NCBI RefSeq assembly: GCF_000717345.1
Contig: NZ_JNZA01000015.1
Location: 124,001-188,000, forward strand
Direction: 5' to 3'
Source of the DNA: Streptomyces lydicus
GTDB taxonomy: Bacteria; Actinomycetota; Actinomycetes; Streptomycetales; Streptomycetaceae
DNA length: 64,000 nt
Positions within the stretch are counted from its first letter, which is position 1. Each line of letters starts with the position of its first letter. The notes beneath the pieces were generated by a model. That model searched no databases, was not told where the DNA came from, and was given only the letters and a program-made list of their open reading frames with translations. Below, piece after piece: positions 4,953-21,306 of this stretch. The position numbers were made by a program, and so were the translations under genes.

Positions 4953-4978
4953 GTCAGGCGTCAGGCGTCAGGCGTCAG
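4953..4978. repeat. Tandem heptamer repeat (GTCAGGC, 3.7 copies)
   Basis: Three exact copies of GTCAGGC followed by GTCAG lie directly between the convergent MerR and radical-SAM genes. The last unit contains the stop codon of the radical-SAM gene (4975-4977). It is a short, possibly length-variable, simple repeat; I see no larger structure. Confidence 0.8.
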
Positions 4979-6006
4979 AGCAGGGTCAACTGGGTGGGTT
5001 CCGCCGCGGTTTCGGCCGCTCGGCCGGCCGCGGGGGCCGGGGTCGGCGGGATGCGGCGGGCCGCGCCCGGCCGGGTCGGCCCGATGCCGTACTCCGTGGC
5101 GAGTTCGTGGACCTGGCGGGTGATCCGGCGCTGGTACCACTTGGGGGCGTAGGCGCCGTCCGCGTACATCGCCTCGTAGCGCCGCACCAGCCGGGGGTGG
5201 TGGTGGCCCAGCCACGCCATGAACCACTCCCGGGCACCGGGCCGCAGGTGCAGGACGAGCGGGGTGACGGAGCCCGCGCCCGCCTCCGCGACGGCCCGGA
5301 CCGTGGCCCGCAGCTGCTCCGGGGAGTCGCCGAGGAACGGGATCACCGGGGCCATCAGGACACCGCACGGGATGCCGTGCGCGGTGAGCGTACGCACCAC
5401 GTCCAGCCGGCGTTCCGGTGCCGGGGTGCCCGGCTCGACCGTGCGCCACAGCTCCCGGTCCAGGAAGCCGACGGAGACCGAGATGCCGATGTCGGTGACC
5501 GCGGCGGCCTGCCGGAGCAGCTCCAGGTCGCGCAGGATCAGCGTGCCCTTGGTGAGGATCGAGAACGGGTTGGCGTGGTCGCGCAGCGCCGCGAGGATGC
5601 CGGGCATCAGGCGGTAGCGGCCCTCGGCGCGCTGGTAGCAGTCGACGTTCGTGCCCATCGCTATGTGGTCGCCGCGCCAGCGGCGCCCGGTCAGCTCGCG
5701 GCGGAGCAGTTCGGGGGCGTTGACCTTCACCACGATCTGGGAGTCGAAGCCCAGCCCGGTGTCCAGGTCCAGATAGCTGTGCGTCTTGCGGGCGAAGCAG
5801 TAGACGCAGGCATGACTGCACCCGCGGTAGGGGTTCACCGTCCATTCGAACGGCATCCGGGAGGCGCCCGGTACGCGGTTGACGATCGAGCGGGCGCGTA
5901 CCTCGTGGAAGGTGATCCCGTGGAACTCGGGGGTGTCGATCGTCCGGCTGACGACATCCGTGCCGAACAGCGCGGAGGGACTTTCGCCCAGATTTTCCCA
6001 GCGCAT
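4975..6006 (-). CDS. Rv2578c-type radical SAM protein
   Basis: A 343-residue radical S-adenosylmethionine enzyme with the 4Fe-4S motif CSHACVYC (Cys63, Cys67, Cys70) preceded by VNPYRGC. The layout (an N-terminal segment of about 55 residues, then the motif, then the SPL-like SILTKGTL stretch) matches the actinobacterial Rv2578c family, distantly related to spore photoproduct lyase. The reaction is unknown. Start ATG at 6006 is preceded by GGAGG at close spacing; the 40 extra upstream in-frame residues are rejected. The C-terminal 40 residues are Ala/Pro-rich and likely disordered. It is divergent from the SRPBCC gene. Confidence 0.88.
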   Translation of the reverse strand: MRWENLGESPSALFGTDVVSRTIDTPEFHGITFHEVRARSIVNRVPGASRMPFEWTVNPYRGCSHACVYCFARKTHSYLDLDTGLGFDSQIVVKVNAPELLRRELTGRRWRGDHIAMGTNVDCYQRAEGRYRLMPGILAALRDHANPFSILTKGTLILRDLELLRQAAAVTDIGISVSVGFLDRELWRTVEPGTPAPERRLDVVRTLTAHGIPCGVLMAPVIPFLGDSPEQLRATVRAVAEAGAGSVTPLVLHLRPGAREWFMAWLGHHHPRLVRRYEAMYADGAYAPKWYQRRITRQVHELATEYGIGPTRPGAARRIPPTPAPAAGRAAETAAEPTQLTLL

Positions 6007-6163
6007 CGGGCCTCCTTCTGGATCCTGACGACCCCCCGTCCGCCATAATAGAACATGTGTTCCCTTGTGGTTCGTCAACCCGGATTTTGGGCGTGCCCCC
6101 CAGTGGTGGTTGGCTTGGCGGCGCATCGCAGGAGCGGCAGCCGACTACTGGAGGAAGACGCAC

Positions 6164-11849: not shown

Positions 11850-12731
11850 TCAGCCCTGAAGGTCGCGGTGGACGACGCGGGCGGCACTCTCGACGGTGGC
11901 CACGCCGTCGCCCATGGTGCGGCTTCCGGTGGAGAGCACGGCCATCCCGTAGTCGTGACCGTTGTCGGTGAAGGTGCCGACGCTGTGCACCCGCCAGCCG
12001 CCGGCCGTGCGCGGCAGCCAGCCGTTCTTGACGTGCACGCTCGCCGAGGCCGGCGCACCGGCGGGTACGCCCCAGCGCTGGTCGGGGGCGACCCGGTGCA
12101 TCAGGTCGAGCGCGTAGCCGCGGGAGGCCGGGGTGAGCACGGTGTTGTCCGTGGTGAGCAGCTGCATCAGCGTGAGCTGGTCGGCGGCGGTGATCTGGGT
12201 GAGACCCCAGGACCCGCCCTGGCCGGGAACGGTGTCCCGCATCCCGGCCAGGGCCAGGAAGTGCCGGACCGCCGCGGGCCCGAGCCGGTGCCACAGCGCG
12301 TCGGTCGAGGCGTTGTCCGACTTGGTGATCATGGCGGTGGTCAGCCGGACCTCCTGCGGGGTCAGCGCGCGGTGCGCCTCCTGGGCCTGCCGCAGCAGCG
12401 CCCCGAGCACGGTGACCTTGACCACGCTCGCCGAGTCGAAGCGGGAGCCGGCCCGGAACTCGCAGTGCGTCCCGGTGTGCCGGTCGTAGACGGCCAGCGC
12501 CGAGGCGCCCTTGCGGCCGTCGAGGGCGTCGGCGATGTCGTGGGACAGCGTCGGGGCCAGCCCGGGCTTCTTCGAGGTGCACACGACCTTGCTGCCGTCG
12601 AGCCGGGCGTCGGCGGTGACGGCCGCGGCAGAGGCGGAGGAGGCCGAGGTGAGCACCGTGAGCAGCGATCCGGCGGCCGCCGCCGCGGCCAGCCCGCGGC
12701 GCGTCCAGGTCGAGGTGCGGGTTCCGTGCAT
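11850..12731 (-). CDS. Secreted class A beta-lactamase-fold serine hydrolase
   Basis: A 293-residue exported protein. A signal peptide with RR at 11-12 and a hydrophobic Ala/Leu core ends at SASA (about residues 32-35). The active-site motif is S102-V-V-K105, the second motif S138-D-N140 and the third K235-N-G (instead of KTG/KSG). The overall size and motif spacing match class A beta-lactamase-like proteins, but the KNG motif and the short, low-charge omega region make true beta-lactamase activity uncertain; a DD-peptidase-like or esterase activity is possible. Start ATG at 12731. It is transcribed away from the upstream PucR gene, which is also on the minus strand and ends 131 bp earlier. 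Confidence 0.85.
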   Translation of the reverse strand: MHGTRTSTWTRRGLAAAAAAGSLLTVLTSASSASAAAVTADARLDGSKVVCTSKKPGLAPTLSHDIADALDGRKGASALAVYDRHTGTHCEFRAGSRFDSASVVKVTVLGALLRQAQEAHRALTPQEVRLTTAMITKSDNASTDALWHRLGPAAVRHFLALAGMRDTVPGQGGSWGLTQITAADQLTLMQLLTTDNTVLTPASRGYALDLMHRVAPDQRWGVPAGAPASASVHVKNGWLPRTAGGWRVHSVGTFTDNGHDYGMAVLSTGSRTMGDGVATVESAARVVHRDLQG

Positions 12732-12862: not shown

Positions 12863-13741
12863 CTAGGGGCGGGGCACGGGGCGGCGCTGGCGGGGGACCC
12901 GGCGGCGGGCCGCGGCTGCCCGGCGGTGGTGCGCGCCCGCGATCAGCCGCCGGCAGCGCAGCGCCATCTCGATCTCGAAGCGGGTCCGCGGATCGCGGAG
13001 CCGGGCGCCGAACAGCTTCTCCAGCTGGCGCATCCGGTAGCGCACCGTCTGCGGATGGATGCTGAGCGCCTTGGCCACCTCGGGCGCCCCCATGCCGCCC
13101 AGCCACGCCAGCAGCGTGGCCTCCAGTCGCTCGCACCGCTCCGCCGACAGTCCCGCGAGCGGGCTCAGCCGGCGGGCGATCAGGGTGCGGGTCAGCGATT
13201 CGTCCTCCAGGAGGATCAGTGAGGAGAGGTGGTCGTCGACGAACATCACGCCGGCGTCGGGGCCGTCGTGCGCGGAGGCCAGGTCCAGCAGCCGGGACGC
13301 CGAGCGTACGGAGGCCGCGGCGTCCTGCGCCGGCACGGCGTGACCGACCGCGGCCGCGCGGTGGCGCAGCACGCCCTTGAGCCGGGCCCGGCCGTCCGGG
13401 CCGTCGGCGAGTGCGCCGGGGATCAGCAGGCCGGGAGCCTCGCCGGGGCCGCTGACGAGGCAGTCGCCCAGCGCGGACGCGACGAGGTGGAGGTCGGTGC
13501 CGCTGCGCAGCATGACCGCCCGCACGGTCTCGGGCAGCGGCCGGCCGCCGCGCAGTACCTCCGCGATCAGCCGGGTGACCTGGGGGTGGGCGCCGTGCTC
13601 CAGTAGTTCCCGGAAGCGCGGATTGCGTTCGCAAAGAGTCTGTGTGATCAGTTCGGTGAGCCTGGACAGCTGCTCTTCATCGGTGTCGGCCCGCATGTCG
13701 TCGGGCTGTGCTAACCGAACGCCGTTGAGTGCGTTGCTCAT
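12863..13741 (-). CDS. PucR-type transcriptional regulator with a TTA codon
   Basis: A 292-residue regulator whose C-terminal region (about 200-270: RCERLEATLLAWLGGMGAPE, then ALSIHPQTVRYRMRQLEKLF) is the PucR helix-turn-helix domain. The N-terminal part is a shortened sensor without a full PucR or GGDEF-like domain. Codon 10 is TTA (13712-13714), very rare in this DNA, so translation likely depends on the bldA leucyl-tRNA if the ATG at 13741 is used; an alternative ATG at codon 16 would avoid it but lacks a clear ribosome binding site. It is divergent from the D-aminopeptidase operon with 355 bp between, and is the obvious candidate regulator of that operon. The last 20 residues are Arg-rich. 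Confidence 0.87.
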   Translation of the reverse strand: MSNALNGVRLAQPDDMRADTDEEQLSRLTELITQTLCERNPRFRELLEHGAHPQVTRLIAEVLRGGRPLPETVRAVMLRSGTDLHLVASALGDCLVSGPGEAPGLLIPGALADGPDGRARLKGVLRHRAAAVGHAVPAQDAAASVRSASRLLDLASAHDGPDAGVMFVDDHLSSLILLEDESLTRTLIARRLSPLAGLSAERCERLEATLLAWLGGMGAPEVAKALSIHPQTVRYRMRQLEKLFGARLRDPRTRFEIEMALRCRRLIAGAHHRRAAAARRRVPRQRRPVPRP

Positions 13742-14096
13742 ATTTCTGCCTCTGTCTCATCATGTGGGAGGCCGGTCCGGCATGTTCTACCTCACCGGGC
13801 AAGTGCCGTCGGCAGCTGACAGAAGTCCGTCGGTACTCGATCGGAATTCTGGCGGAAGTCCTTCCGCTTTGCGACAGAAACTGTGTGGGATCGTGCGCCA
13901 CACGAGCATTCGGGGACTCCGGAGCCCTGCTGTGAGTGGTGTTGCGGCCAACAGTGCGGCCCTGAAAGGGGCTGGACGGGGTGTCACTCGCGGGCGCCTG
14001 GTTAGGGTGGACAAGTCCCACCCGGCGCCCTCGAAACCGTTGTGAACGAGTGATGTCAGGACTCGTGCGTACCGCCTCCTAGCTGCGATAGGACTG
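13742..14096. promoter_or_regulatory. Divergent control region between the PucR gene and the peptidase operon
   Basis: This 355-bp non-coding region must hold both promoters. It has a perfect palindrome with arm GCGGAAG around TC at 13852-13867, a candidate operator, and is richer in A/T than neighbouring coding DNA. I see no convincing -35/-10 pair and no small gene. Confidence 0.5.
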
Positions 14097-14936
14097 GTGA
14101 ATGTGAAGATCCTCATCTCCGCCGATATGGAAGGCGCGACCGGCGTGACCTGGCCCGCCGACGTGCTTCCCGGTACGCCGCAGTGGGAGCGCTGCCGCCA
14201 TATGTTCACGTCCGACGTGAATGCGGCGATTGTCGGATTCTTCGACGGTGGCGCCGATGAGGTCCTGGTCAACGAGGCGCACTGGTCCATGCGCAATCTG
14301 CTGCTGGAACAGCTCGACGAGCGGGCGCAGATGCTCACCGGCAAGCACAAGTCGCTGAGCATGGTCGAGGGCGTCCAGCACGGCGACGTCGACGGCATCG
14401 CCTTCGTCGGCTACCACACCGGGGCCGGTACCGAGGGCGTCCTCGCGCACACCTACCTCGCCAACTCGCTCACCGGCGTCTGGGTCGACGGCACCCGGGC
14501 GAGCGAGGGCTACCTCAACTCCCTTGTGGTCGCCGAGTACGGCGTGCCCGTCGTGCTGGTCACCGGCGACGACCGCACCTGCCAGGACGCCCTGGGCTAC
14601 GCCCCGCAGGCCCCCGGGGTGGCGGTCAAGGACTATGTGTCGCGCTACGCCGCGGTCTGCCGGCCACCGGCCCGCACGGCCGCCGACATCCGGGCCGCCG
14701 CCCGCAAGGGCGCGGCGCTCGCGGTACGTCATGAACCCGCCCGGCGCGGCCCGTTCCGCTTCGAGTTGGAGTTCGACGCCGAGCATCTGGTGGGCGCGGC
14801 GACCTGCGTGCCCGGCGTGGAGCGCAGCGGGGAACGCCGCGTGGCGTATACCAGTCAGAACATGTACGAAGCCATCCGGTGCTTCAAGACGGTGACCACC
14901 GTCGTCTCGTCGGCCGTGGAGGAACAATATGGCTGA
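14097..14936 (+). CDS. M55 family D-aminopeptidase (DppA-like)
   Basis: A 279-residue zinc-dependent D-aminopeptidase of family M55, which removes N-terminal D-residues from short peptides such as D-Ala-D-Ala. The expected metal ligands are visible: Asp10 and Glu12 in ISADMEG, His62 in NEAHWSM, His107 in GYHTGAG and Glu137 in RASEGYLN. The length equals that of Bacillus DppA. GTG at 14097 was chosen because the family starts immediately with the K-I-x-I-S-x-D strand; a weak AGGA precedes it. Its stop overlaps the next start by 8 bp, so the two genes are translationally coupled. First gene of a four-peptidase operon. Confidence 0.92.
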   Translation: MNVKILISADMEGATGVTWPADVLPGTPQWERCRHMFTSDVNAAIVGFFDGGADEVLVNEAHWSMRNLLLEQLDERAQMLTGKHKSLSMVEGVQHGDVDGIAFVGYHTGAGTEGVLAHTYLANSLTGVWVDGTRASEGYLNSLVVAEYGVPVVLVTGDDRTCQDALGYAPQAPGVAVKDYVSRYAAVCRPPARTAADIRAAARKGAALAVRHEPARRGPFRFELEFDAEHLVGAATCVPGVERSGERRVAYTSQNMYEAIRCFKTVTTVVSSAVEEQYG

Positions 14937-16293
14937 GGTCGCAAGGACCGCGGACCCCGTCGCCGGGCAGGCGGCCGGGGTGGACCGGCAGGCGCTGGAC
15001 GAGGTGGTGCGCTTCACCTCCGACCTGATCCGGATCGACACCAGCAACGCCGGCGACGGCGCCTGCCGTGAGCGCCCGGCCGCCGAGTACGTCGCCGAGC
15101 GGCTGGCCGACGCGGGCATCGAACCGACGCTGCTGGAGCGCAGCAAGGGACGCACCAACGTCGTCGCCCGGATCGCCGGCACCGACCCCGCGGCGGATGC
15201 GCTGCTGGTCCACGGCCATCTGGACGTGGTGCCCGCCGAGCCCGCCGACTGGAGCGTGCACCCCTTCTCGGGGGAGGTCCGCGACGGCGTGGTCTGGGGC
15301 CGGGGCGCCATCGACATGAAGAACATGGACGCGATGGTGCTCGCCGCAGTACGGCAGTGGGCGCGCACCGGCGTACGGCCGCGGCGGGACATCGTGCTGG
15401 CCTTCACCGCCGACGAGGAGGCCAGCGCCGAGGACGGCTCGGGCTTCCTGGCCGACCACCACGCCAACCTCTTCGAGGGCTGCACCGAAGGCATCAGCGA
15501 GTCCGGCGCCTTCACCTTCCACGCCGGTGGCGGCATGCAGCTCTACCCGATCGCGGCCGGCGAGCGCGGCACGGCCTGGCTGAAGCTGACCGCCCGCGGC
15601 CGGGCCGGGCACGGATCGAAGGTCAACCGCGACAACGCCGTCAGCCGGATCGCGGCCGCCGTCGCCCGGATCGGCGAGCACGAGTGGCCGGTCCGGCTCA
15701 CCCCGACCGTGCGAGCCGCCCTGCGCGAACTCGCCGCGCTGCACGCCATCGAGGTGGACGTCGAGGCACCGGACTGCGACGTCGACGCGCTGCTGGGCAA
15801 GCTCGGCCCGTCCGCCAAGCTGGTCGAGCCGACCGTCCGCAACAGCGCCAACCCGACGATGCTGACGGCCGGTTACAAGGTCAATGTGATCCCGGGGTCG
15901 GCCGTCGCCTATGTGGACGGCCGGGTGGTCCCCGGCGGCGAGGCGGAGTTCCGTACGACCATGGACGAACTCACCGGGCCCGAGGTCAGCTGGGACTACC
16001 ACCACGGCGAGGTCGCCCTGGAGGCCCCGGTCGACTCCCCGACCTACGCCGCGATGCGGGCGTCGATCGAACGCTTCGACCCGGACGGCCACGTCGTGCC
16101 GTACTGCATGTCCGGCGGCACGGACGCCAAGCAGTTCTCCCGGCTGGGCATCACCGGCTACGGCTTCTCGCCGCTGAAGCTGCCCGAGGGCTTCGACTAC
16201 CAGGCGCTCTTCCACGGCGTGGACGAGTGCGTACCGGTCGAGGGGCTGCACTTCGGGGTCCGGGTGCTCGATCACTTCCTGCGCGCGGCCTGA
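14929..16293 (+). CDS. M20 family metallopeptidase
   Basis: A 454-residue M20/M25/M40-type di-zinc peptidase. Metal ligands: His97 and Asp99 in HGHLDVVP, Asp129 in GRGAIDMKNM, and the ADEEAS pair (Glu163 catalytic, Glu164 ligand). The dimerisation lid domain lies at about 205-330 and the last ligand His is near the C terminus (ALFHGVDE). Members cleave dipeptides, acyl-amino acids or carboxypeptides; here the neighbours suggest small peptides. No signal peptide, so cytoplasmic. The start overlaps dppA-like stop by 8 bp; GAGGAAC lies just upstream. Confidence 0.93.
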   Translation: MAEVARTADPVAGQAAGVDRQALDEVVRFTSDLIRIDTSNAGDGACRERPAAEYVAERLADAGIEPTLLERSKGRTNVVARIAGTDPAADALLVHGHLDVVPAEPADWSVHPFSGEVRDGVVWGRGAIDMKNMDAMVLAAVRQWARTGVRPRRDIVLAFTADEEASAEDGSGFLADHHANLFEGCTEGISESGAFTFHAGGGMQLYPIAAGERGTAWLKLTARGRAGHGSKVNRDNAVSRIAAAVARIGEHEWPVRLTPTVRAALRELAALHAIEVDVEAPDCDVDALLGKLGPSAKLVEPTVRNSANPTMLTAGYKVNVIPGSAVAYVDGRVVPGGEAEFRTTMDELTGPEVSWDYHHGEVALEAPVDSPTYAAMRASIERFDPDGHVVPYCMSGGTDAKQFSRLGITGYGFSPLKLPEGFDYQALFHGVDECVPVEGLHFGVRVLDHFLRAA

Positions 16294-16339
16294 CCCCGCG
16301 CCGCGCACTGCCCGACCGGTGGACGAGAGGAATCGCACC

Positions 16340-18370
16340 ATGGTCACCACCGCTCCCTACGGCACCTGGCCGTCACCGGTAGACGCCGGCACGGTCGCGG
16401 CGCACGACGGCCGGCCGGCCTTCGTCGGCATGGTCGGCGACGAGGTGTGGTGGACCGAGCCGCGGCCCGCCGAGGGCGGCCGGCGGGCCCTGGTCCGCCG
16501 CCGGCCCGACGGCCGGTGCGCGTCGGTGCTGCCCGCGCCCTGGAACGTCCGCAGCCGGGTGCTGGAGTACGGCGGCCAGCCCTGGGCCGGCACGGTCACC
16601 GCACGCGGCCCGCTCGTCGTCTTCAGCGACTTCACCGACCAGCGGCTCTACGCCTACGAACCCGACAGCGGCGCCGCGCCGCGCCCGCTCACCCCGCTCT
16701 CCGGCACCGGCGGCGGACTGCGCTGGGCCGACCCGGTGCTGTGCCCGGAGCGCGGCGAGGTGTGGTGCGTCCTGGAGGAGTTCACCGGCGACCGGCCGAC
16801 CGAGGTGCGCCGGGTGATCGCGGCCGTGCCGCTCGACGGCTCGGCAGCCGAACGACGTTCCTCCGTACGGGAGTTGAGCGACGACCGGCACCGCTTCGTC
16901 ACCGGCCCGCGCCGCTCACCCGACGGGCGGCGGGTCGCCTGGCTCGCCTGGGACCACCCGCACATGCCCTGGGACGGCACCCTGGTGATGCTGGCCCAGG
17001 TCACCGCCGAGGGCGCGTTCAAGGACGTCCGGCCGGTCGCCGGGGCCCTCGGCGGCTCCGGTACGCCGGGCACCGGCGGGAGCGGCGAATCCGTCCCGCA
17101 GGTCGAGTGGGCCCCGGACGGCTCGCTGCTGTGCGCCTCGGACCTCGGCGGCTGGTGGGAGCTGCAGCGCCTGGACCTCGACGCGGCCGGCGACGGCGGC
17201 CCGGTGCGCCACGCCCTGTGCCCCGGCCGTGAGGAGGAGTTCGCCGGCCCGCTGTGGAACCTCGGACAGCGCTGGTTCCTGCCGCTGGAGAACGGCACCC
17301 TCGCCGTCATCCACGGCCGCGGCGCCACCGCCCTCGGCATCCTCGACCCGGTCGCCGGGGACCTCGTCGACGCGGCGGGCCCGTGGACGGAGTGGGCGCC
17401 CACCCTCGCCGCGCACGGCAGCCGGGTCATCGGCATCGCCGCCGGCCCGCACAGCGCGTACGAGATCGTCGAGCTGGACACCTGCACCGGCCGCGCCCGG
17501 GTGATCGCCCGCCGGCACGTCGACGTCGTCGACCCCGCCTACTACTCCCGGCCCCGGAGCCGTACCTTCAGCGGCCCCGACGGGAGGGAGGTCCACGCCC
17601 ACATCCATCCGCCGCACCACCCCGACCACACCGCCCCCGAGGGCGAGTTGCCGCCCTTCGTGGTGTGGGCGCACGGCGGCCCCACCAGCCACGCCCCCAT
17701 GGTGCTCGACCTGGAGATCGCCTACTTCACCTCCCGCGGCATCGGCGTCGCCGAGGTCAACTACGGCGGCTCGACGGGCTACGGCCGCGCCTACCGCGAG
17801 CGGCTGCGCGGGCAGTGGGGCGTGGTGGACGTCGAGGACTGCGCCGCCGTCGCCCGGGCACTCGCCGACGAGGGCACCGCCGACCCCGCCCGCCTGGCCC
17901 TCCGCGGCGGCAGCGCCGGCGGCTGGACCACGGCCGCCTCACTGACCGCCACCGACCTCTACGCCTGCGGCACCATCAGCTACCCGGTCCTGGACCTGGC
18001 CGGCTGGGCCACCGGTGAGACCCATGACTTCGAATCGCAGTACCTGGAGTCGCTGATCGGCCCGCTCGCCGACGTCCCCGACCGCTACCGCGAGCGCTCG
18101 CCGCTGCACCGCGCCGACCGGATCACCGCCCCGTTCCTGCTGCTCCAGGGCCTGGACGACGTGATCTGCCCGCCCGCCCAGTGCGAACGCTTCCTCGCCG
18201 CGGTGGCCGGGCGCGGCATCCCGCACGCCTATCTGACGTTCCCGGGCGAGGGGCACGGCTTCCGCCGTGCGGACACCATCGTCCGGGCGATCGAGGCCGA
18301 ACTCTCCCTCTACGCCCAGACCTTCGGCTTCCGCCGCGACGACGTGCCCGCACTGGAGCTGGACCGATGA
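16340..18370 (+). CDS. S9 family prolyl-oligopeptidase-type peptidase
   Basis: A 676-residue serine peptidase: an N-terminal beta-propeller (about 1-410) that filters short peptides and a C-terminal alpha/beta-hydrolase domain. The triad is Ser525 in GGSAGGW, Asp606 or Asp607 in GLDDVICPP and His639 in GEGHGF. It lacks a signal peptide, so it acts in the cytoplasm. ATG at 16340 is preceded by GAGAGGAA; a GTG seven codons earlier would include that ribosome binding site and is rejected. It lies 46 bp after the M20 gene and overlaps the next gene by ATGA, so it is third in the operon. Confidence 0.93.
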   Translation: MVTTAPYGTWPSPVDAGTVAAHDGRPAFVGMVGDEVWWTEPRPAEGGRRALVRRRPDGRCASVLPAPWNVRSRVLEYGGQPWAGTVTARGPLVVFSDFTDQRLYAYEPDSGAAPRPLTPLSGTGGGLRWADPVLCPERGEVWCVLEEFTGDRPTEVRRVIAAVPLDGSAAERRSSVRELSDDRHRFVTGPRRSPDGRRVAWLAWDHPHMPWDGTLVMLAQVTAEGAFKDVRPVAGALGGSGTPGTGGSGESVPQVEWAPDGSLLCASDLGGWWELQRLDLDAAGDGGPVRHALCPGREEEFAGPLWNLGQRWFLPLENGTLAVIHGRGATALGILDPVAGDLVDAAGPWTEWAPTLAAHGSRVIGIAAGPHSAYEIVELDTCTGRARVIARRHVDVVDPAYYSRPRSRTFSGPDGREVHAHIHPPHHPDHTAPEGELPPFVVWAHGGPTSHAPMVLDLEIAYFTSRGIGVAEVNYGGSTGYGRAYRERLRGQWGVVDVEDCAAVARALADEGTADPARLALRGGSAGGWTTAASLTATDLYACGTISYPVLDLAGWATGETHDFESQYLESLIGPLADVPDRYRERSPLHRADRITAPFLLLQGLDDVICPPAQCERFLAAVAGRGIPHAYLTFPGEGHGFRRADTIVRAIEAELSLYAQTFGFRRDDVPALELDR

Positions 18371-19308
18371 CGGGCGCGACGACCGACGGGCTGCGCCGGC
18401 CGCCGCGGCTGCGGGCCGGCGACCGGGTCGTGGTGCTCGCGCCCAGCGGCCCGATCCTGCCGGAGCGGCTGGACCGCGGCCTGGACGTGCTGCGCGGCTG
18501 GGACCTCGACCCGGTCCCCGCACCGCACGTCGGGGACGTCCACCCCGTCCTGGGACATCTCGCGGGCAGCGACGCGGACCGGGCCCGCGACTTCCAGGAC
18601 GCCTGGTGCGACCCGTCCGTCAAGGCGGTCTTCGCGGCGCGCGGCGGCTACGGCGCCCAGCGGATGGTCGACCTGCTGGACTGGGACGCCATCAGGGCCG
18701 CGGACCCCAAACCGCTGATCGGCTTCAGCGACGTGACCGTGCTGCACGAGGCGTTCGCGGTCCGCGCCGGGGTGTCCACCCTGCACGGGCCGGCCGTCGC
18801 GGGCGAGGTCTTCCTCAAGGACGACGCCACCCGCGAGCAGCTGCGCCGCATGCTCTTCGTGCCGGAGACCGTCCGTACGCTCGTCTCCCCGTCGTCCCGG
18901 CCGCTGGTGCCCGGCCGCGCCCGCGGGATCACCGCCGGCGGCTGTCTGGCCATGCTCGCCAGCGAGCTGGGCACGCCGCGGGCCCGGCCCGGCGCGGCGG
19001 GCGCCCTGCTGCTCCTGGAGGACGTCGGGGAGCCGCCGTACCGCATCGACCGGGCGCTGACCCAGCTGCTGCGCGCCGGCTGGCTGGACGGCGTCGCCGG
19101 GATCCTGCTCGGCTCCTGGGCGCAGTGCGGTCCCTACGAGCGGGTGCGGGAGGTGCTGGTGGACCGGCTGGGCGGTCTCGGCGTGCCGGTGGCCGAGGAG
19201 TTCGGCTTCGGGCACGGCGCCTCCGCGCTGACCGTTCCGCTGGGCGTCGCCGCCGAGCTGGACGCCACGGCGGGCACCCTCCGCTGCGCCGTCCCGGCGC
19301 TCACCTGA
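18367..19308 (+). CDS. S66 family LD-carboxypeptidase (LdcA/MccF-like)
   Basis: A 313-residue serine peptidase of family S66, which cleaves the L-D bond in muropeptides (LdcA) or peptide-nucleotide antibiotics (MccF). The nucleophile Ser121 is in GFSDVT, the Glu is in LLLEDVGE and the His in FGHGA. Upstream the ARGGYGAQRM loop is typical. The start ATG overlaps the S9 stop codon (ATGA, 18367-18370), showing translational coupling. With a D-aminopeptidase as first gene, this supports recycling of peptides that contain D-amino acids, for instance from peptidoglycan; immunity to a peptide antibiotic is the main alternative. Confidence 0.92.
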   Translation: MTGATTDGLRRPPRLRAGDRVVVLAPSGPILPERLDRGLDVLRGWDLDPVPAPHVGDVHPVLGHLAGSDADRARDFQDAWCDPSVKAVFAARGGYGAQRMVDLLDWDAIRAADPKPLIGFSDVTVLHEAFAVRAGVSTLHGPAVAGEVFLKDDATREQLRRMLFVPETVRTLVSPSSRPLVPGRARGITAGGCLAMLASELGTPRARPGAAGALLLLEDVGEPPYRIDRALTQLLRAGWLDGVAGILLGSWAQCGPYERVREVLVDRLGGLGVPVAEEFGFGHGASALTVPLGVAAELDATAGTLRCAVPALT

Positions 19309-19404
19309 CCCCGGCGGACCGCGGCCGCACGGTACGTCCCAACTCCGCCCCGCCCAGGGGACGGTGGTGAACGGACGTCCTAACAGAGACGCGTGCCGGG
19401 AGCG

Positions 19405-19427
19405 TTGACACGTCCGTTACTCGTGTC
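19405..19427 (+). promoter_or_regulatory. Candidate promoter and palindrome before the CocE-like gene
   Basis: TTGACA at 19405-19410 is a consensus-like -35 box; a clear -10 box is not seen. An overlapping inverted repeat (arm GACACG at 19407-19412, partner CGTGTC at 19422-19427) could be an operator. The start codon is 58 nt further on. Confidence 0.35.
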
Positions 19428-19485
19428 ACAACATGAGCGCGCCGTTACCGACTGGCTGGTACGACGTGTCCTTGTGGAGGTCCTG

Positions 19486-21306
19486 GTGCCCAGCGAGTCC
19501 CGAGCCGTGTCCCGCCCCGTACTCCGCACGTCCCTCGCCCTGCTGGCCGCCGGCGCCCTCGCCGCGCCCCTCCTTCAGAGTGCCCCCGCGGCCGCGGCCG
19601 CCGACCCGTACAAGGTCAGCGCCCTGAAGGTCACCGTCCGCGCGGGGGAGCGCACCTGCTCCCTGGACGCGGACGTCTACCGCCCGGCCGGCGTCGATGC
19701 CGCGCACCCGGCGCCCGCCGTGCTCACCACCAACGGCTTCGGCGGCAGCAAGGCCGACGGTTCCACCGATGCCATCGCCAAGTCCTTCGCCGCCCGCGGC
19801 TATGTGGCGCTGGCCTGGTCCGGCCTCGGCTTCGGCAAGACCGGGTGCCCGATCTCGCTCGACGACCCGCGGATCGACGGCCGGGCGGCGAGCGGACTGC
19901 TCGACCTGCTGGCCGGCACCCGTACGGCCGACAACGGCACCCGCATCGACTACGTCGTCACGGACGGCGCGGGCGATCCGCGGGCCGGGATGATCGGCGG
20001 CTCCTACGGCGGCGCGATCCAGCTGGCCACCGCGGCGGTCGACCACCGCGTCGACGCCCTGGTCCCGCTCATCACCTGGAACGACCTCTCCTACTCCCTC
20101 GACCCGGACAACGCCGGCCGGACGCACGGGGTGAGCGGGCCGCTGCCCGGTGCGTACAAGTGGCAGTGGACCGACGGGTTCTTCCTGCTCGGCGAGGCGC
20201 AGGGGCTGCTGCACCCGAATCTGGACCGGTCGCGGACCGGCGGCGCGGGCTGTCTGCACTTCGTCGCGCGGGCCTGCGAGACCAAGCGGCTGCTGGATTC
20301 GGGCCGCTATCCGGCCGAGAAGACCAAGGCGATGCTCGACTACGCGCGCAGCGTCTCCCCGGTCTCCTACCTGAAGTCGGTCAAGGCGCCGACGCTGCTG
20401 GTCCAGGGCCAGGCCGACACCCTCTTCAACCTCAACGAGGCGACCGCCACCTACCGCGCCCTCACCGCTCAGGGCACCCCGGCCCGGATGATCTGGCAGT
20501 CGTGGGGCCACAGCGGGGGCATGAAGCACCCCGCGAAGGGCGAACTCGACCTGGCGAAGGGCAACTTGACGGACAGCTACGTCGGGCGGCGGATCCTCTC
20601 CTGGTTCGACCGGTATCTGCGCCACCGCACGGCGGCCGGCACCGGCCCGGCGTTCGCGTACTACCGGGACTGGGTGACCGGCGGGTCCGCCTACGGGACC
20701 GCGTCCGCCGTCCCGGCGGCGAACCTGCGGCTCTACCTCTCCGGCGACGGCAAGCTCGTCGGCGCGCGCGGCAAAGTGGCGCGCGGCAGCCGTACGTACC
20801 GCAATCTGCGGGTCGCCACCAGCCACTCGGAGAGCTCGCTGTCGGGCCTGCTCGGCCTCAAGGACCCCGAGCCGTTCGACGCCAGGGGCACCTTCCTGGA
20901 CTGGACGTCCGCACCGGTGACCGGCCGGCCGGTGGACGTGGTGGGCGCGCCCAGGGTGACGCTGAAGGTGGTCTCGCCGCGGACGGAGCAGGTGCAGAAC
21001 TCCTCGGACGCGGCCGACAAGCTGGTGCTCTTCGCCAAGCTCTACGATGTCGCGCCGGACGGCAGGAAGACGCTGGTGCACCGGTTGGTGGCCCCGGCCC
21101 GGGTGCCCGATGTGACCCGGCGGTTCACCGTGGAACTGCCGGGCATCGTGCACCGCTACGGGCCGGGGCACCGACTGCGCCTGGTCCTCGCCGCGAGCGA
21201 CGACGCCTATGCGGGCAATCGCGGCGTGAAGCCGGTGACGGTCACCAGCGCGCCCGGGGACACCGGGGTCCTCGAACTGCCCGTCACGCAAGGGGTGTTG
21301 CGGTAG
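19486..21306 (+). CDS. Secreted CocE/NonD family hydrolase (X-Pro dipeptidyl-peptidase-like)
   Basis: A 606-residue exported serine hydrolase. A signal peptide (hydrophobic LALLAAGALAAPLL, cleavage near AAAAA at about residue 40) is followed by an alpha/beta-hydrolase core with nucleophile GGSYGG and, near residue 340, the VQGQADTLFN acid region and WGHSGG for the His. The C-terminal beta-sandwich (about 400-606) is the X-Pro dipeptidyl-peptidase C-terminal domain. Members cleave X-Pro peptides or ester bonds. GTG at 19486 follows GGAGG at 5-nt spacing. It comes 177 bp after the peptidase operon with its own promoter candidate, so it may extend the peptide-degrading theme outside the cell. 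Confidence 0.9.
   Translation: MPSESRAVSRPVLRTSLALLAAGALAAPLLQSAPAAAAADPYKVSALKVTVRAGERTCSLDADVYRPAGVDAAHPAPAVLTTNGFGGSKADGSTDAIAKSFAARGYVALAWSGLGFGKTGCPISLDDPRIDGRAASGLLDLLAGTRTADNGTRIDYVVTDGAGDPRAGMIGGSYGGAIQLATAAVDHRVDALVPLITWNDLSYSLDPDNAGRTHGVSGPLPGAYKWQWTDGFFLLGEAQGLLHPNLDRSRTGGAGCLHFVARACETKRLLDSGRYPAEKTKAMLDYARSVSPVSYLKSVKAPTLLVQGQADTLFNLNEATATYRALTAQGTPARMIWQSWGHSGGMKHPAKGELDLAKGNLTDSYVGRRILSWFDRYLRHRTAAGTGPAFAYYRDWVTGGSAYGTASAVPAANLRLYLSGDGKLVGARGKVARGSRTYRNLRVATSHSESSLSGLLGLKDPEPFDARGTFLDWTSAPVTGRPVDVVGAPRVTLKVVSPRTEQVQNSSDAADKLVLFAKLYDVAPDGRKTLVHRLVAPARVPDVTRRFTVELPGIVHRYGPGHRLRLVLAASDDAYAGNRGVKPVTVTSAPGDTGVLELPVTQGVLR

Follow-up and report, generated by a model that had tools for sequence, protein, structure and literature searches.

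A lineage-specific, bldA-dependent local regulator adjoining a genus-wide peptide-digesting operon is the explanation of this Streptomyces locus that we prefer, and we would give it an even chance of being correct. The locus lies in the window, i.e., the whole analysed stretch of 64,000 nucleotides, where a short PucR-type regulator gene (pucR) is separated by a gap of 355 bp from four peptidase genes (M55, M20, S9, and S66) running in the opposite direction (Table 1). TTA is a rare codon in Streptomyces, which makes translation depend on the bldA tRNA and serves as a developmental brake; pucR has a single one among its 292 codons, at codon 10. What is observed comprises the gene order, the retention of the TTA, the confinement of the linked regulator to a single clade, and cis sites tied to pucR. 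Judging from the sequence arrangement, control of the peptidase genes by PucR is plausible. The locus is a small and well-defined case of bldA-gated regulation, a kind of gating that is itself already known in Streptomyces.

Pfam supports the assignment of all five genes (HTH_30, Peptidase_M55, M20, S9, and S66/S66C), the C-terminal helix-turn-helix of PucR-type regulators (PF13556) scoring 59.6 bits against a cut-off of 27. The M55 and M20 genes overlap by 8 bp, and the end of S9 at 18370 meets the S66 ATG at 18367 in an ATGA overlap. The likely start of S9 is the ATG at 16340, matching the point where the solved homologue 3azo begins. These matches and overlaps bear out the coupled four-peptidase layout, divergent from a PucR-type gene, which a sequence-only reading had described; the in-frame TTA that it reported at codon 10 was confirmed as well. 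A sigma-70 promoter scan found no promoter, and one terminator-like site was at chance level. By eye, the M55 genes at 20 Streptomyces loci often have no clear ribosome site, and -10-like bases stand directly before the start codon, as in leaderless mRNA.

Table 1. Features of the pucR–peptidase locus (positions in the window)
Feature	Position	Strand	Remarks
Beta-lactamase2-type serine hydrolase gene, next after pucR on the same strand	11850..12731	-	
Short PucR-type regulator gene pucR	12863..13741	-	292 codons; Pfam HTH_30 (PucR C-terminal HTH)
TTTGCGAnCGCAA near-palindrome within pucR codons 36–40, candidate operator	13623..13635	-	9/9 linked loci
TTA (UUA) codon of pucR	13712..13714	-	Kept in 9/9 linked orthologues
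AGAGGCA, ribosome-site-like, just 5' of pucR start	13747..13753	-	9/9 linked orthologues
GTGCCGTCGGCA near-palindrome 5' of pucR	13803..13814	.	8/9 linked loci, absent in L073
TTTGCGACAGAAACTG intergenic block, candidate operator	13868..13883	+	Identical across 9/9 linked loci
M55 D-aminopeptidase gene	14097..14936	+	Pfam Peptidase_M55; without clear ribosome site, possibly leaderless (upstream sequences by eye)
M20 metallopeptidase gene	14929..16293	+	Pfam M20; NCBIfam PRK07906 subfamily
S9 aminopeptidase gene	16340..18370	+	Pfam S9; close to 3azo (1031 bits)
S66 LD-carboxypeptidase-like gene	18367..19308	+	Pfam S66/S66C

The TTA occurs once per gene, and at the same aligned place, in all nine orthologues that lie beside an M55 gene (the linked orthologues), and the codons around it vary. 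The N-terminus of these proteins has a mean pairwise identity of 51% (columns 2–24, Leu excluded) against 84% in columns 25–280, and residues 1–18 are disordered in the predicted model (pLDDT < 50). Since the neighbouring codons vary and the segment is both disordered and poorly conserved, selection at codon 10 seems to hold the codon rather than the residue. Among the 38 Leu columns invariant in the nine linked proteins, 26 vary in codon, whereas 12 have the same codon throughout, namely the TTA column and 11 others (ten with CTG or CTC, one with CTT). Taken alone, an unchanged Leu codon is thus no rarity, but an unchanged TTA is one in a genus that avoids this codon. In the matched peptidase-gene stretches of the same nine loci, TTA accounts for none of 1293 Leu codons; its presence in 9/9 linked orthologues against 0/1293 is more than chance, the nine sequences being one small clade and hence few independent samples.

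The sequence-only reading had raised a start at the second ATG (codon 16), or loss of the TTA in homologues, as ways in which TTA control might fail. The second ATG was rejected as the start, as it is present in the window gene alone among the linked orthologues, and all nine hold the TTA. Additionally, AGAGGCA is conserved 5' of the start in 9/9 linked loci, and a tRNA-Leu gene with the anticodon TAA, tRNA-Leu(UAA), is found in the genome; the TTA lies in frame within what appears to be the true coding sequence. Owing to the kept TTA, the conserved AGAGGCA, the unconserved ATG 16, and the tRNA-Leu gene, the proposed TTA control of pucR is very likely. The idea that the TTA is part of a DNA-binding site was rejected, as its flanking bases vary.

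It had also been claimed that this TTA is the only in-frame one of the window. A crude gene call based on GC3, covering 82% of the window, placed TTA in 3 of 46 open frames, and in both frames other than pucR it falls 5' of the likely start. The radical SAM gene (4975–6126, minus strand) has a TTA at codon 27 of its longest frame and a likely start at codon 41. In the S15/PepX_C peptidase gene (19393–21306, plus strand), which lies 84 bp past S66, TTA codon 9 is in frame only with the most upstream start; an S15 gene is found downstream in 7/9 linked loci. Three additional window genes outside the GC3 call contain no TTA. The claim is likely rather than proven, because 11 window stretches longer than 300 bp remain without a called gene.

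The regulator is rare and confined. At E ≤ 1e-70, pucR orthologues occur in 8 of 392 Streptomyces genomes, seven of them linked to M55 and one, in genome G090, unlinked; a search of 199 relatives, overlapping the 392-genome sample, gave three matches (the window's own genome, G064, and G090). A scan of named genomes with only two short peptide patterns, which sets a lower bound, gave at least two further linked loci, in Streptomyces sp. NBRC 110611 and S. kronopolitis. The linked orthologues therefore total nine (seven from the 392 genomes and two named records), all beside M55, and the divergent pucR/M55 layout is kept in every one. Their proteins form one clade (support 100/98) with G090 as its sister (100/100). 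Counted from the likely start, the G090 gene encodes 378 amino acids; its codon for the homologous Leu is CTG, and the gene is free of TTA and lies far from its own M55 gene. Moreover, a middle segment shared by G090 and most aligned paralogues is missing from the linked proteins. As the sister gene is unlinked, longer, and TTA-free, a shortened PucR paralogue probably came to adjoin the core operon. Loci L007–L029 hold a family of PucR paralogues whose N-termini are MCELLNRIWSRPRGEWTRV-like and largely conserved, and whose C-termini are ARVNGL-like.

The peptidases, in contrast to the clade-specific regulator, belong to the genus as a whole. Among 150 Streptomyces genomes, matches were obtained to M55 in 148 (E ≤ 1e-3), to M20 in 150 (E ≤ 1e-100), to S9 in 146 (E ≤ 1e-100), and to S66 in 116 (E ≤ 1e-40); these counts may include paralogues, and collinearity was taken from 20 compared loci, comprising the window, eight other regulator-bearing loci, and 11 without the regulator. 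M55, M20, and S9 are collinear in 20/20, and S66 comes next in 13/20 (7/9 with the regulator and 6/11 without). By sequence comparison, the M55-M20-S9(-S66) peptidases are a core set in Streptomyces. The expectation that the module is conserved together hence holds for M55-M20-S9, but not for the regulator, which is clade-specific, or for S66, which is missing at 7/20 loci. Of the exact module, for which the sequence-only reading knew no description, only the regulator is specific to the clade. PucR of the linked type is absent within the stretch at 11/11 other M55 loci, so it would not be needed for the basic function of the operon. Upstream of M55, these 11 loci have varied genes (inspected by eye in at most three frames at each locus), of which the nearest is no obvious regulator; further up from M55, one frame is Lrp-like in L077 and another GntR-like in L084. 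No TTA was seen in the listed frames upstream of M55 at the 11 loci.

The enzymes point to the handling of short peptides. In the alignment of M55 with DppA (1hi9), all six active-site residues are matched, and we take the metal ligands and nucleophile of DppA to be Asp8, Glu10, His60, His104, His115, and Glu133. With 162.3 bits against the NCBIfam model NF058634 (DppA equivalog; cut-off 430), M55 is by its sequence a family relative and not a DppA equivalog. S66 is nearest to PA5198 of P. aeruginosa (1zrs/1zl0; about 125 bits), presumably an LD-carboxypeptidase, and keeps the Ser, Glu, and His that we assume to form the catalytic triad; its matches to MccF chains reach at most 82.1 bits, so that it is not closer to MccF. 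The S9 protein matches 3azo, whose entry is labelled 'Aminopeptidase', over its whole length (1031 bits, about 70% identity by eye); we take 3azo to be a Streptomyces puromycin hydrolase. None of the four peptidases has a signal peptide by eye. Together, the predicted activities suit intracellular trimming of short peptides, including those with D-residues, and recycling of D-residue peptides by the operon is plausible. Of the D-residue role proposed earlier, the part resting on catalytic residues stands, those of the DppA/LdcA type being kept in M55 and S66; the absence of S66 at 7/20 loci, two of them regulator-bearing, speaks against it.

The cis sites go with pucR. In 9/9 linked loci, TTTGCGACAGAAACTG and TTTGCGAnCGCAA, both centred on TTTGCGA, stand on either side of the pucR start, and the pair occurs in 0/11 regulator-less loci; the 700 bp upstream of M55 contain no TTTGCGA in any of these 11. 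The distance from TTTGCGACAGAAACTG to the pucR start is 124–128 bp in 9/9, whereas that to M55 ranges from 121 to 250 bp, and the two sites are 239–246 bp apart, centre to centre. This spacing, fixed to pucR and variable to M55, suggests that the TTTGCGA sites are candidate operators of pucR itself; as evidence, they speak for autoregulation and no more. Several 7-mers have two or more copies in every one of the nine regions, namely TTTGCGA and others that are GC-rich. A window test for synonymous conservation did not pick out the intragenic site TTTGCGAnCGCAA. A loose pattern derived from both sites, TTTGCGAVVGMAA, has two matches in the whole genome, just these sites, which equals its backward control; it is thus the conservation that counts, and a genome-wide regulon of such sites was rejected. 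Inheritance of the sites together with pucR was also rejected upon comparison of 27 paralogue loci (L006–L032), where TTTGCGA occurs only in L006 (G090) and L007, and ACAGAAACTG in none; a longer stretch of G090, L076, contains TTTGCGA four times, in no case arranged as in the linked loci. The GAAAC within the intergenic block was considered as part of a GlnR-like box, but by eye its spacing does not fit the GlnR consensus, and this reading was dismissed.

On the opposite side of pucR, the serine hydrolase gene follows in 8/9 linked loci (absent in L063), and no copy of it was found in the 14-kb stretches of the 11 regulator-less loci. It is a possible co-transcribed, wall-related partner of pucR. 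Its product has a signal-like N-terminus by eye.

In the preferred explanation, a PucR paralogue in the ancestor of one Streptomyces branch would have lost its middle segment, carried a TTA near its start, and been placed divergently beside the core M55-M20-S9(-S66) operon. The UUA codon would hold back PucR synthesis until late growth and differentiation, when the bldA tRNA becomes plentiful; PucR would then bind the TTTGCGA sites and control its own gene, and may also control the M55 promoter from the shared region of 246–373 bp. The cytosolic peptidases would trim short peptides, among them the D-residue stems that come from wall turnover, down to amino acids, which resembles the role thought for the Bacillus dpp and ykf genes. 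It counts against this explanation that 2/9 linked loci are without S66, which of the four enzymes has the closest tie to wall peptides. A bolder form, in which the clade timed the core operon developmentally by capturing the short PucR and selectively keeping a UUA brake and an operator pair, with D-peptides of dying or remodelled hyphae being recycled only once the bldA tRNA is available, is rather unlikely in our estimation; there, the operators, about 240 bp apart, would span the pucR promoter and start and might form a repression loop. A quite possible alternative is that bldA-dependent PucR regulates itself alone, perhaps with the serine hydrolase gene, and stands beside the operon by an accident of insertion. 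The sites that track pucR and not M55, the core operon without the regulator at 11/11 other compared loci, the restriction of the serine hydrolase gene to linked loci, and the related regulator of G090, far from its M55 gene, all agree with this; but 9/9 loci retain the divergent arrangement of pucR and M55 even though the S66, S15, and serine hydrolase genes come and go.

Immunity to a peptide antibiotic, the other function suggested from the sequence, makes a weak case, since the operon is core in the genus. Here, the operon would destroy peptide-like antibiotics (puromycin-like ones by S9, microcin-C-like ones by S66) and be switched on by the bldA programme during antibiotic production. 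This is improbable: the whole-length match of S9 to 3azo and the matches of S66 to MccF chains speak for it, but the best S66 match is PA5198 and not MccF, and a genus-wide operon better fits housekeeping. Improbable, too, is that the TTA is a mere relic that carries no regulatory weight, for instance owing to a poorly constrained N-terminus or a downstream start. Streptomyces TTA codons are mostly little conserved, according to PMC10327506; the disorder of residues 1–18 and the single-codon state of 12 of the 38 Leu columns, TTA included, would also agree with a relic. However, the other unchanged columns hold CTG, CTC, or in one case CTT, 26 columns vary, codon 16 is not a conserved ATG, and the AGAGGCA before the upstream start is conserved.

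Among known systems, the likeness to B. subtilis dppA-E/ykfABCD is that an M55 D-aminopeptidase and an S66 LD-carboxypeptidase (YkfA) are encoded in neighbouring genes, dppA being, as 1hi9 indicates, the M55 gene. In contrast, the four-gene Streptomyces operon is without the transporter, the YkfB epimerase, and the YkfC endopeptidase, the latter two not being found by Pfam among the four genes, and has M20 and S9 instead; the neighbouring regulator is a TTA-bearing PucR, not CodY. YkfABC is proposed for murein peptide use and ykfA-D adjoin dppB-E (PMC2954226), and dppABCDE is a CodY target in a stationary-phase study (PMC9931155). Like adpA and other TTA-gated regulators of Streptomyces, this pucR keeps its TTA within a clade; unlike them, it occurs in one small clade and has a core catabolic operon as its neighbour. 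It is not named in Table 2 (section 11) of PMC4255298, and neither PMC4255298 nor PMC10327506 uses 'PucR' in its main text. Literature searches on PucR with TTA codon, bldA, and Streptomyces, and on 'puromycin hydrolase', found no paper, and no title among the matches listed concerned this regulator or operon; the pucR-like gene named in a passage of PMC13118837 adjoins fatty-acid genes only.

The branch may thus tie part of its peptide recycling to the life cycle, as the data suggest. As a natural example of how a core operon gains a TTA-gated neighbour regulator, the locus is a clean one, and the TTA-free, unlinked sister gene of G090 is a possible before state for it. Furthermore, exchanging this one codon would be a direct test of the way in which lineages rewire the bldA programme, and of whether it includes wall and peptide recycling. 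As for the regulator itself, its predicted fold is nearest to the PucR-type proteins Rv2242 (9f80) and BAD_0249 (3onq), sharing their C-terminal helix-turn-helix; it differs from them in being short with an N-terminus of its own, and the global TM-scores are low (about 0.4).
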